NCBI GenBank assembly: GCA_905181865.1
Contig: CAJIZG010000001.1
Location: forward strand, 372,001 to 436,000
Reading direction: 5' to 3'
Source: Urechidicola croceus
GTDB taxonomy: Bacteria; Bacteroidota; Bacteroidia; Flavobacteriales; Flavobacteriaceae
DNA length: 64,000 nucleotides
Under the pieces are notes generated by a model that was given only the letters and a program-made list of their open reading frames with translations, made no database searches and was not told where the DNA came from. The first letter of the stretch is position 1. Each line of letters begins with the position of its first letter. A program made the position numbers and the translations under genes. Below are positions 10,677-25,980 of the stretch, piece by piece.

Positions 10677-10764
10677 ATGAAACGAGCATGCTAAATCTTT
10701 TATGATCCAAGGGAATAAGTAATGGCAAACTACATGTAACCGTTAAAAAAAAACATATAAAAAC
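10677..10764 (+). repeat. Copy A of a three-copy intergenic leader element
   Basis: The region from ATGAAACGAG (10677) to the start codon at 10765 shares a conserved core with two other intergenic places. The core includes AAGGGAAT and AATGGCAAACTACATGTAACC. The other copies are at 25419-25506 and, on the opposite strand, 20137-20224. All three are oriented like the following gene and begin exactly 88 nt before its start codon. The ATG of this copy opens a frame of only five codons, so a conserved peptide is not supported. Confidence 0.7.
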
Positions 10765-11340
10765 ATGAAAATCTATACAAAAACTGGAGACAATGGCACC
10801 ACAGGACTCTATGGTGGCACTCGCGTACCAAAATACCATTTACGCGTTGAAACGTATGGCACCGTAGATGAACTAAATTCTCATATAGGATTAATCAGAG
10901 ATCAAGAAATTTCAAAAAAGATCAAAATTGATTTATTAAAAATCCAAAATGATTTATTCACGTTAGGATCCATGTTAGCAACACCTGAGGAAAAAGAAAT
11001 TTTAAAAAATGGTGAGAAGCGACTCAATATTGTAACAATAGATAAAGACTCTATTGAACTCTTAGAACAATCTATTGACTTGATGAACCTAGATCTTCCA
11101 GCGATGACTCACTTCACGTTACCAGGTGGACACAGCACCGTGTCATATTGTCATATAGCGCGGTGCGTTTGTAGAAGAACTGAGCGATTAGCTGTGCAGT
11201 TAGCTGAAACATCATCCATAGAATCAACTATTATTATGTATCTCAACAGACTATCTGACTACCTTTTTACATTGGCACGGAAGTTGACTTACGACTTAAA
11301 TGTAGAAGAAATTCAATGGATTCCATCTAAAAATAAATAA
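10765..11340 (+). CDS. PduO-type cob(I)alamin adenosyltransferase
   Basis: This 191-aa enzyme moves the adenosyl group of ATP to Co(I) corrinoid to make adenosylcobalamin. The N-terminal TKTGDNGTTGLYGG is the ATP-binding P-loop-like motif of the PduO family. RCVCRRTERLAVQ and YLNRLSDYLFTLAR match the conserved helix signatures near the corrinoid site. Length is standard. No cobalamin biosynthesis genes lie nearby, so it probably serves salvage of imported B12 (inference). Copy A of the three-copy element occupies its leader. Confidence 0.93.
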   Translation: MKIYTKTGDNGTTGLYGGTRVPKYHLRVETYGTVDELNSHIGLIRDQEISKKIKIDLLKIQNDLFTLGSMLATPEEKEILKNGEKRLNIVTIDKDSIELLEQSIDLMNLDLPAMTHFTLPGGHSTVSYCHIARCVCRRTERLAVQLAETSSIESTIIMYLNRLSDYLFTLARKLTYDLNVEEIQWIPSKNK

Positions 11341-18732: not shown

Positions 18733-20136
18733 TTATTTAAGTCTTTCAATCATTTCACTCAAATTACATGTGCACTGCTCACCATTATTCATATTCTTTA
18801 CTATAAATAGTTCGTTTTCTACCTTCGACACAACAAATGGGATCTCTCTATTTGAAATATATTTCCACTGTTTTTTTTGTTGTTTTCCACTTTTTCCTAC
18901 ATCAGGATAAAGTTCACATTTTATATTATTCTTTCTAAGTTCTTTGATGGCCTTTAATTGAGATAATCTAATAGATTCATCAAAATTCATAAAAACTACT
19001 TTTGGCTTTGGAAGCAAAACTTCATTAAACAAATCTAACTCTTCCAAAACTAAATAAATGCGATCTAAACCAAATGAAATCCCTACGCCACTCACATCTT
19101 TTAATCCAAATATTCCTGTTAAATCGTCATAACGGCCTCCACCACCTATAGAACCCATCTTTACTCCTTCTGGAGCAGCAACTTCAAAAATAGCCCCGGT
19201 ATAATAATTTAATCCGCGCGCCAACGTTACATCAATATTCAAATTTGCAGATTGAAGACCCAATTCTGAAATATTTTTAATGATAAATTCTAAATCTTCT
19301 ATACCACTCAAGCCTTCGTCGGAAGCGCTAAGCATTCCTTTCAACTGGTCTAATTTCTCCTGATTGGAACCATTAAAACTAAACAATGGCTGAACTTTTT
19401 CTATAGCTTTGGCTGTAATTCCTTTAGAAAGCAATTCTTTTGTAACGCCCTCTACTCCTATTTTATCTAACTTATCCAAAGCTATCGTAAAATCAATCAA
19501 TTTATCTGAAGCACCAATAATCTCAGCAATTCCAGTTAAAATTTTACGATTGTTCATTTTAATCGTTGCTCCTTCCAATTTTAATTTGGTAAAAACATCA
19601 TCATACAATTGAACAAATTCAATCTCTTGCATTAAACTTTTACTACCTACAACATCTGCATCACACTGATAAAACTCTCTAAACCTTCCTTTTTGAGGTC
19701 TGTCTGCTCTCCAAACAGGTTGCATTTGATACCGTTTAAACGGAAAGTTAATTTCATTTTGATGTTGCACCACGTATCTTGCAAACGGCACTGTTAAGTC
19801 ATAACGCAATGCTTTTTCTGAGATTGATTTAGTAATTGTATTAATATTATATGATAAACTTTTTAGATCTTTACGAATAGAGTTATCTACAAAAGATTCG
19901 AATCCTTCCTTAACTTTAGCTAAATAATCACCCGAATTCAAAATCTTAAAAATCAAACGATCTCCTTCCTCTCCATATTTTCCCATTAAAGTTGATGAAT
20001 TCTCAAAACTTGGTGTTTCAATAGGTTGAAAACCAAAATTTTCAAATGATGACTTTATAATGCTAAAAATGTAATTACGTTTCGCCACTTCAGTTGGCGA
20101 AAAATCTCTCGTTCCTTTTGGGATACTTGGCTTCAT
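18733..20136 (-). CDS. hisS: Histidyl-tRNA synthetase
   Basis: This 467-aa class II synthetase charges tRNA-His. The start KPSIPKGTRDFSP is the family N-terminus. Motif 2 is RYDLTVPFARYV with GRFREFYQCDAD, the HisA signature is LARGLNYYTGAIFE (about 307), and motif 3 is GGGGRYDDLTG with GVGISFGLDRIYL. The anticodon-binding domain occupies the last 100 residues. It is longer than E. coli HisS (424 aa) by insertions common in Bacteroidota. Its leader contains copy C of the three-copy element. Confidence 0.97.
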   Translation of the reverse strand: MKPSIPKGTRDFSPTEVAKRNYIFSIIKSSFENFGFQPIETPSFENSSTLMGKYGEEGDRLIFKILNSGDYLAKVKEGFESFVDNSIRKDLKSLSYNINTITKSISEKALRYDLTVPFARYVVQHQNEINFPFKRYQMQPVWRADRPQKGRFREFYQCDADVVGSKSLMQEIEFVQLYDDVFTKLKLEGATIKMNNRKILTGIAEIIGASDKLIDFTIALDKLDKIGVEGVTKELLSKGITAKAIEKVQPLFSFNGSNQEKLDQLKGMLSASDEGLSGIEDLEFIIKNISELGLQSANLNIDVTLARGLNYYTGAIFEVAAPEGVKMGSIGGGGRYDDLTGIFGLKDVSGVGISFGLDRIYLVLEELDLFNEVLLPKPKVVFMNFDESIRLSQLKAIKELRKNNIKCELYPDVGKSGKQQKKQWKYISNREIPFVVSKVENELFIVKNMNNGEQCTCNLSEMIERLK

Positions 20137-20224
20137 GTGTTTTTCTTATTTTCTAAACAACGGTCACATGTAGTTCGCCATTAATCATTCCCTTGAGTGA
20201 TAAATTTTGATCTGCTCGTTTCAT
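20137..20224 (-). repeat. Copy C of the three-copy intergenic leader element
   Basis: On the minus strand this copy runs from ATGAAACGAGCAGATC at 20224 through AAGGGAATGATTAATGGCG and AACTACATGTGACCGTTG to the hisS start at 20136. It has the core shared with 10677-10764 and 25419-25506. Here the opening ATG begins a 23-codon frame (MKRADQNLSLKGMINGEL, then HVTVV, stop) that is disrupted in the other two copies. Confidence 0.7.
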
Positions 20225-25418: not shown

Positions 25419-25506
25419 ATGAAACAAGTATGTTTAAAATAGTATCACTCAAAAGAATGGTTCATGGCGAACTGTATGTGACCTAATTAACAAATAGTAT
25501 AGACAC
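25419..25506 (+). repeat. Copy B of the three-copy intergenic leader element
   Basis: It begins ATGAAACAAG at the base right after the preceding stop codon and reaches the rlmH ATG 88 nt later. Core segments TATCACTCAA and CATGGCGAACTGTATGTGACC match copy C closely. The opening ATG frame stops after seven codons. Confidence 0.7.
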
Positions 25507-25980
25507 ATGAAAATCAAACTTATTGCTATAGGTAAAACAGATAACCAATATCTAATTAAACTAATTGATACCTATAAAAATAGACTTCAACATTACGTTA
25601 CATTTGAATTATTTGTCATTCCCGATTTAAAAAACGTCAAAAATATTTCAGAAAATCAACAAAAAGAAAAAGAAGGAGAATTAATTTTAAAGCACTTACT
25701 ACCAACAGATCAATTGATATTACTTGACGAGAAAGGAAAAGAATTCCGTTCTATTGAATTCTCTCAATTTCTACAAAAAAAGATGAATTCTGGAATTAAA
25801 CAATTGGTTTTTGTAATTGGAGGGCCATATGGGTTTTCTAAAAATGTATATTTAACGGCTCAGGGAGAGGTATCACTTTCAAAAATGACATTTTCTCATC
25901 AAATGATTCGCCTCTTTATGGTAGAGCAAATCTATCGAGGTTTTACCATCTTAAAAAATGAACCTTACCATCACGAGTAG
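25507..25980 (+). CDS. rlmH: 23S rRNA (pseudouridine-1915-N3)-methyltransferase
   Basis: This 157-aa SPOUT methyltransferase acts on helix 69 of 23S rRNA in assembled 70S ribosomes. It starts MKIKLIAIGKTDNQYL and has the SAM-binding knot VFVIGGPYGFS (about 106-116). It ends LSKMTFSHQMIRLFMVEQIY with the C-terminal YHHE that shapes the active site. Length is exactly that of the family. Confidence 0.96.
   Translation: MKIKLIAIGKTDNQYLIKLIDTYKNRLQHYVTFELFVIPDLKNVKNISENQQKEKEGELILKHLLPTDQLILLDEKGKEFRSIEFSQFLQKKMNSGIKQLVFVIGGPYGFSKNVYLTAQGEVSLSKMTFSHQMIRLFMVEQIYRGFTILKNEPYHHE

Follow-up and report, generated by a model that had tools for sequence, protein, structure and literature searches.

In the 64,000-nt stretch of Urechidicola croceus DNA analyzed here (the window), the genes for a PduO-type adenosyltransferase, HisS and RlmH are each preceded by the same conserved sequence, and we asked what this sequence is and how it came to stand there. 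A first-pass annotation had reported the three copies and considered that they might be a cis-acting leader of a small regulon touching translation, a binding site for a regulator, or a small dispersed repeat. On re-reading the sequence, all three copies were found at the places and in the orientations reported, and the features concerned are as follows.

10677..10767, plus strand: element copy 1 (91 nt), before the PduO-type gene
10765..11340, plus strand: cob(I)yrinic acid a,c-diamide adenosyltransferase, PduO type (ORF; TIGR00636 above cut-off)
20224..20134, minus strand: element copy 2 (91 nt), before hisS
18733..20136, minus strand: hisS, histidine--tRNA ligase (TIGR00442 above cut-off)
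25419..25509, plus strand: element copy 3 (91 nt), before rlmH
25507..25980, plus strand: rlmH (NF000990 above cut-off)

The 5' ends agreed with those annotated before, while the 3' ends had to be moved, since the element is 3 nt longer and takes in the start codon of the next gene. The 3' ATG of copy 1 (10765-10767) is the current start codon of the PduO-type gene, that of copy 2 (20136-20134, minus strand) is the start codon of hisS, and that of copy 3 (25507-25509) is the start codon of rlmH. At the other end, the 5' ATG of copy 1 lies at the position of the start codon of the PduO-type gene in relatives and now opens a 5-codon ORF, and copy 3 adjoins the stop codon of the preceding gene. 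The frames opened by the first ATG are 5, 7 and 23 codons long, as had been counted before, and the copies encode nothing conserved. The core ATGGCRAACTRYATGTRACC, with up to 3 mismatches, occurred 3 times in the window compared to a mean of 0.03 in shuffled sequences. A match to a known Rfam family, named in the first-pass annotation as a refuting result, was not found in the window at the gathering threshold; the stretch around copy 1 gave two Rfam matches, both far below threshold.

We compared the three gene starts with those of 13 relatives of the same genus. At the PduO-type gene, the element was absent in 12 of the 13 (for one of them, G005, judged on 22 nt of upstream sequence) and present in G011. 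In most of the empty sites, the preceding gene ends and a short AT-rich stretch leads straight into ATGAAAATTTAC or a similar sequence; in the window genome (G000) and in G011, a like stretch is followed by ATG, the element, and then ATG with the CDS. At rlmH, all 13 relatives lacked the element, and in two of them, G006 and G010, a like upstream gene ends with its stop codon one base before the ATG or overlapping it, this junction being the exact place of the element in G000. For hisS, the site was empty in all 11 relatives with a visible start region, while in the two others of the 13 the match began at about residue 101. Where the site is filled at pduO and rlmH, the element separates the old 5'UTR with its ATG from a second ATG with the CDS. 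The empty and occupied sites at pduO, rlmH and hisS, therefore, indicate that the element inserted at the ATG.

The element is abundant in the window's own genome. The core pattern, with up to 3 mismatches, was found at 24 places in 3.42 Mb, compared to 2 for the reversed control, and a sequence-only model built from 18 of these places gave 104 matches at E≤1, three of them in the window. The 18 aligned copies run from ATGAAAC to ...CACATG over 88-93 nt, and the last ATG is mostly the start codon of the next gene. Many of the 104 matches stand in head-to-tail arrays in which adjoining units have the ATG in common. Subfamilies could be told apart, among them type A (ATGAAACGAGCATG...), to which the window copies belong, type B (ATGAAACATCC...GGATG..), and a long form whose two matching halves are separated by a gap of 41-54 nt; tandems of types A and B exist with type A upstream (e.g., L087, L088, and L093). 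When 5' and 3' halves were paired over part of the loci collected, in search of copies carrying a gene, the only gaps found were those of the long form.

Beyond this genome, 24 of 60 genomes searched, the window genome included, had a match at E≤0.01. A strict search (E≤1e-5) found the element in at least 67 of 299 genomes of the family and at least 55 of 203 genera, again counting the window genome; both figures are lower bounds, as up to 14 candidates were scored per genome. G006, which belongs to the window's genus and is 99% complete, had no match at E≤0.01 or in the strict search. Among named genomes, at least 117 stretches matched the core exactly. Nearly all of the 80 titles among the matches listed were Flavobacteriaceae or Flavobacteriales, including Winogradskyella, Lutibacter, Lacinutrix, Psychroserpens, Algibacter and others, along with a few MAGs labelled Bacteroidetes only; Trichococcus and one Sphingomonadales MAG, also among the matches listed, are apparent chance hits. 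A second family of the order, represented by G037 and G052, also has divergent copies. One type-A copy used as query had no match in phages and plasmids, and three exact patterns, none of them specific to type B, had no match in viral contigs. A lone plasmid match to a G019 stretch was discarded as 39 nt of an Acinetobacter gene.

To describe the position of the copies relative to genes, we took 60 loci of the window genome (a part of the 104 matches), with 67 distinct copies at E≤1e-3 reaching model position 70 or beyond. In 44 of the 67, the 3' end coincides with the ATG of an ORF of 60 or more aa (or of one still open where the locus stops); another copy follows in 10, a short ORF in 9, and the remaining 4 lack an ATG at this place. 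Some of the short-ORF ends actually meet diverged copies (L093 and L089), and others meet a 47-aa ORF found again in a second genome (L007 and L190). In a set of 136 copies from named genomes, picked by exact core match, 112 end on the start of such an ORF among the matches listed, with 3 running into a further copy, 19 into a short ORF (several of these being further copies too) and 2 without ATG. The second codon is AAA at 40 of the 44 occupied starts in the window genome and, among the matches listed, at 107 of the 112 in named genomes; for comparison, 9 of 55 window ORFs of 100 or more aa begin with ATGAAA (simple longest-ORF call). The ATGAAA sites of the window number 9 at starts, 84 in CDS and 13 in intergenic DNA. 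As a separate observation, the 47-aa ORF is conserved between L007 and L190, from two genomes (MKELIKQYE.. and MKELIKQYQ..), and is a candidate small protein behind the element.

Evidence of recent movement came from G019, a genome of another genus of the family, in which 22 copies match a 66-nt type-B pattern with at most 2 mismatches, 14 of them with none, and every one has its own flanks. ATG precedes 20 of the 22 copies (ATA and TAG in the other two), AAA follows 21 (AAT in L310), and the terminal ATG is retained in 20 (ATA in L321, AAG in L330). When the element was removed by script, none of the 22 sites lay inside an ORF of at least 80 aa. Fourteen sites were scored as CDS starts, including L321, whose 3' end is no longer ATG; by inspection, L322 (a 77-aa ORF) and L325 (5' ATG now ATA) are starts as well, giving 16 of 22. 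Six copies lie off CDS starts: L316, L326, and L327 sit 46-135 nt upstream of a co-directional ORF, whereas L314, L328, and L330 are not followed closely by any co-directional gene. The last three, being off starts, argue for the sequence itself as the target. The absence of all 22 from CDS is far from a random use of all ATGAAA sites and could reflect either purging of harmful insertions or a genuine bias to gene starts. The first-pass annotation had named random orientation, or a place inside genes, as refuting; copies abutting ORFs point into them and no recent copy lies inside an ORF of at least 80 aa, though 3 of the 22 do not stand before a co-directional gene. The same genome also holds two IS200-like families with near-identical copies (L331-L340; ~590 bp, 98-99.8% identical).

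The earlier description had seen no strong conserved hairpin, and this was borne out for close copies but not for divergent subfamilies, which have two hairpins in common. When six copies were folded singly, one was clearly more stable than shuffled sequences (1/200 as stable), three slightly more stable (15-21/200), and two not. RNAalifold of the 18 type-A copies gave one 6-pair helix without compensatory change, which competes with hairpin 2, and the type-A consensus folds with this helix rather than with hairpin 2. Type B of G019, a G034 copy, and two copies from the second family each fold into two adjacent hairpins, a fold that is less clear in type A. Hairpin 1 spans approximately nt 5-55; in hairpin 2, CATGTG or CATCTG pairs with the terminal CACATG or CAGATG, so that the new start codon is paired. 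The pattern used to locate the left arm of hairpin 2 leaves the fourth base free, and only the fourth pair, therefore, counts as evidence: in 69 divergent copies (17 of 86 representatives, without a recognizable arm, having been dropped) it was G-C in 42, C-G in 12, G-T in 7, A-T in 1, and a non-pair in 7. The C-G state may be one old event. For hairpin 1, own arms paired with a mean of -7.37 kcal/mol compared to -5.70 for swapped arms, and the observed mean lay beyond those of all 5000 permutations (65 of the 69 copies). In the median copy, 43% of swapped arms paired at least as well as its own, and the own arm was among the best 10% in 16 of 65 copies, so the signal stems from part of the set. 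Both arm tests ignore the relatedness of copies. Averaged over 222 copies, the 3' AUG had a predicted pairing probability of 0.44; in the predicted folds of the window copies, the last AUG is paired in the hisS copy, paired at two of three bases in the rlmH copy, and unpaired in the pduO copy.

We consider it very probable that all three leaders belong to one family of short non-autonomous mobile elements found in the Flavobacteriaceae, which bears out the small dispersed repeat proposed earlier and sharpens it to a mobile element with the fixed target ATG/AAA (the slash marks the insertion point). At the level of sequence comparison, the data establish insertion at ATG/AAA with the resulting layout 5'UTR-ATG/AAAC...element...CACATG/AAA-CDS, as well as re-creation of the ATG, recent amplification and tandem arrays. 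The old start codon stays upstream, where it heads a short ORF, while the gene receives its new start codon from the final three bases of the element and the protein is left unchanged. Since insertion re-creates ATG/AAA, further copies can land in tandem, and because insertion at start codons and in intergenic DNA leaves the protein intact, copies would persist mainly there. We infer that the moving form is a folded strand with two hairpins, read by a recombinase or transposase that is encoded elsewhere and acts in trans. Against this reading stand the 6 of 22 G019 copies off CDS starts, the two that no longer end in ATG, and the 13 of 67 copies of the window genome that end in a short ORF or without ATG; the type-A helix that competes with hairpin 2, the swapped arms that pair as well as a copy's own, the failure to find a mobilizing enzyme or a gene-carrying copy, and the repeated occupancy of some genes (see below) also count against it. 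A further step, which we propose tentatively and which is somewhat more doubtful than not, is that the start codon is central to the biology of this element and that it represents a new class: ~90 nt long, mobile as a strand with two hairpins through a trans-acting recombinase not yet recognized, with ATG/AAA as target and its own ATG as its last three bases. We know of no other mobile element that carries a replacement start codon as its end.

Neither a mobilizing enzyme nor a gene-carrying copy was found with the Y1 and RVT_1 profiles, the ends of the G019 IS200-like elements and the loci examined, and two kinds of enzyme were weighed as the one that moves the element. A tyrosine recombinase moving it as a small circle is a possibility that we rate as doubtful, on a reading of the junction sequence: the tandem junction ACACATG-AAACGAG-CATGTT forms an imperfect inverted repeat around a 7-nt spacer, the first bases of the spacer, AAA, match the target ATG/AAA, and the tandem arrays equal the circle junction to be expected. 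Tyrosine recombinases occur in nearly all genomes, so their distribution would not test such a role. A possible XerD-like character of the right arm was dropped because it is not common to the subfamilies.

We regard it as unlikely that a Y1 (HUH) transposase of the IS200/IS605 type moves the element; like known non-autonomous members of that family, it would then have ATG(AA) as target 5' of the insertion, a hairpin at either end and no target-site duplication. The hairpins, the short fixed target and the lack of any duplication beyond what ATG could hide would suit such an enzyme, and G019 has 14 Y1 matches. Across 299 genomes, Y1 genes were found in 30 of 67 element-bearing genomes compared to 71 of 232 others (p=0.04), a weak excess; Y1 does not appear to be required. 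No Y1 match was found in 8 of 19 copy-rich genomes (8 or more element matches), and G002 (34 copies) and G018 (11 copies) have none. A target lying solely 5' would, moreover, not predict the preference for AAA 3' of the insertion. Both IS200-like families of G019 have other ends and target flanks, and they were rejected as parents, as they start with TTTATTGG and TTTAATCT and end with GTTTAGTTAT and GTTCATTA, unlike the ends of the element.

The downstream genes bear on the regulon proposed earlier, i.e., a cis-acting RNA leader, riboswitch-like or protein-bound, in which the AUG-pairing hairpin would switch the translation of all downstream genes together. Of 47 tabulated downstream proteins of the window genome, 30 were scanned, chosen partly for familiar-looking N-termini and hence not random, and all 30 had a family match: RidA, HisS, RlmH, DnaN, PduO, CysS, WecB, DapB, QueA, ClpP, two endonuclease/phosphatases, LpxB, ferrochelatase, guanylate kinase, glutamine amidotransferase, type II dehydroquinase, FGGY kinase, a class II tRNA ligase, EamA, carbonic anhydrase, SCO1, a trypsin-PDZ protease, GH88, a 3-keto-disaccharide hydrolase domain, UbiA, an alpha/beta hydrolase, cytochrome c and, below model cut-offs, PssA and a sugar aminotransferase. 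Five of the 30 touch translation (HisS, CysS, the class II tRNA ligase, RlmH, and QueA), the rest being spread over many processes; with families of so many kinds, no regulon is seen. Grouping of 212 sites gave 19 clusters in which one gene carries the element in different genomes, some of them being one strain seen twice; aroQ and dnaN are among the genes occupied in several genomes. This leaves room for selection. We also observed that, in four Winogradskyella genomes (L107, L108, L113, and L146, from a set picked by exact core match and hence biased), the element stands before the same gene, presumably metF-like, with loops that differ and other parts alike, so selection may have kept some insertions.

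A regulatory leader would fit these repeated occupancies, the hairpins common to the subfamilies, the predicted pairing of the 3' AUG, the five translation-related proteins, and the fact that most copies end on a start codon. It is nevertheless very unlikely, and as the main reading it was rejected on the empty sites and the diversity of downstream genes. Most close relatives lack the element at the three window genes, the same-genus G006 has no match at E≤0.01, one genome holds 22 near-identical copies, and some copies lie away from starts. A binding site for a regulator likewise leaves the insertion into empty sites and the 22 near-identical copies unexplained. If the predicted pairing of the AUG in hairpin 2 affects translation, this would be a side effect of the mobile element or a later adaptation.

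Copying from mRNA leaders by a reverse transcriptase would suit the 16 of 22 recent copies at CDS starts and the absence of all 22 from ORFs of at least 80 aa, but it is most improbable, as no RVT_1 match at E≤1e-10 was found in G019, with its recent burst, or in G000, and RVT_1 occurs in 24 of 67 element-bearing compared to 62 of 232 other genomes (p=0.17). Five copy-rich genomes (G018, G160, G180, G271, and G284) have neither a Y1 nor an RVT_1 match, and neither distribution explains that of the element.

We then set the mobile element beside known systems. Like MITEs, it is short and gene-less, with many dispersed copies and evidence of mobility. By inspection, its ends ATGAAAC... and ...CACATG are not inverted repeats of one another beyond the palindrome CATG, leaving internal hairpins only, and the ATG on both flanks could either belong to the element or be a 3-bp target-site duplication. 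Known MITEs of bacteria (Correia, RUP, ERIC, and others) resemble it in being short, gene-less, dispersed and presumably moved in trans; it differs from them in that no terminal inverted repeats were seen, nor any target-site duplication beyond what ATG(A) could hide, the target lies at ATGAAA, and no parent transposon was found. Non-autonomous IS200/IS605 derivatives and REP sequences have hairpins, a short fixed target and an intergenic location in common with the element, and they lack a target-site duplication, of which the element shows none beyond what ATG could hide; several copy-rich genomes, however, have no Y1 match, and the ends of the element are unlike those of IS200-like elements in the same genome.

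Two publications describe further systems of a similar kind. Rickettsia palindromic elements are ~150 bp long and lie among unrelated genes, many leave the host gene translatable, and nearly half of those described there insert into ORFs and encode a peptide (PMC10969869). The dispersal among unrelated genes and the host gene that stays translatable are common to both; by contrast, our element has the start codon as its insertion site, restores that codon and has no conserved coding content, and in-frame insertion inside an ORF of at least 80 aa was found in none of the 22 recent copies. Direct repeats of TAACTGA before start codons are described for Beggiatoaceae, Cyanobacteria, and Bacteroidetes (PMC4679880). 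Many of their copies also lie within nucleotides of the start codons of functionally unrelated genes, but they are arrays of a heptamer, whereas the element is a unit of 91-94 nt with the start codon inside it, and the corresponding sites in relatives are empty. These two appear to be the closest ideas. In open-licence PMC full texts, we found no paper with the motif strings and no description of the element; it may be described elsewhere. The kind of element, small non-autonomous mobile DNA, is known, and there is a real chance that the mobilizing system is new.

A selfish element of this kind can occupy start codons, e.g., those of the dnaN and guanylate kinase genes, with the protein unchanged, and its many natural insertions are available for testing Bacteroidetes translation with a changed leader. 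It also bears on the annotation of leaders and start codons in Flavobacteriaceae, where the old and new start codons lie ~90 nt apart, and it points to an enzyme not yet recognized with a target of about six bases. If the tentative new class is real, a start-codon element can settle before essential genes, leaving their proteins unchanged and re-creating its landing site for tandem growth.

Two minor observations concern individual loci. Approximately 30 kb past the right end of the window, L083:10738-11355 (C1:465737-466354 of the same genome) holds about seven tandem copies of another subfamily (ATGAACCATCC...) directly 5' of a gene that we take to be dapF-like, and an in-frame upstream ATG in the last copy would add MHHVTELKNIYRH to the protein; a second, similar array lies ~8 kb away in the opposite orientation, with a similar N-terminal extension (MHHVTELKNTYRH). 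In several copies (L088:2841-2954, L264, L090, L083:5078-5190, L122, and L174), the left arm of hairpin 2 has REP-like palindromes (such as CTGAGYGYAGTCGAAG and TCCCGATAACTATCGGGA) nested close to its CATG, and from their placement it looks as if this spot were itself an insertion site.
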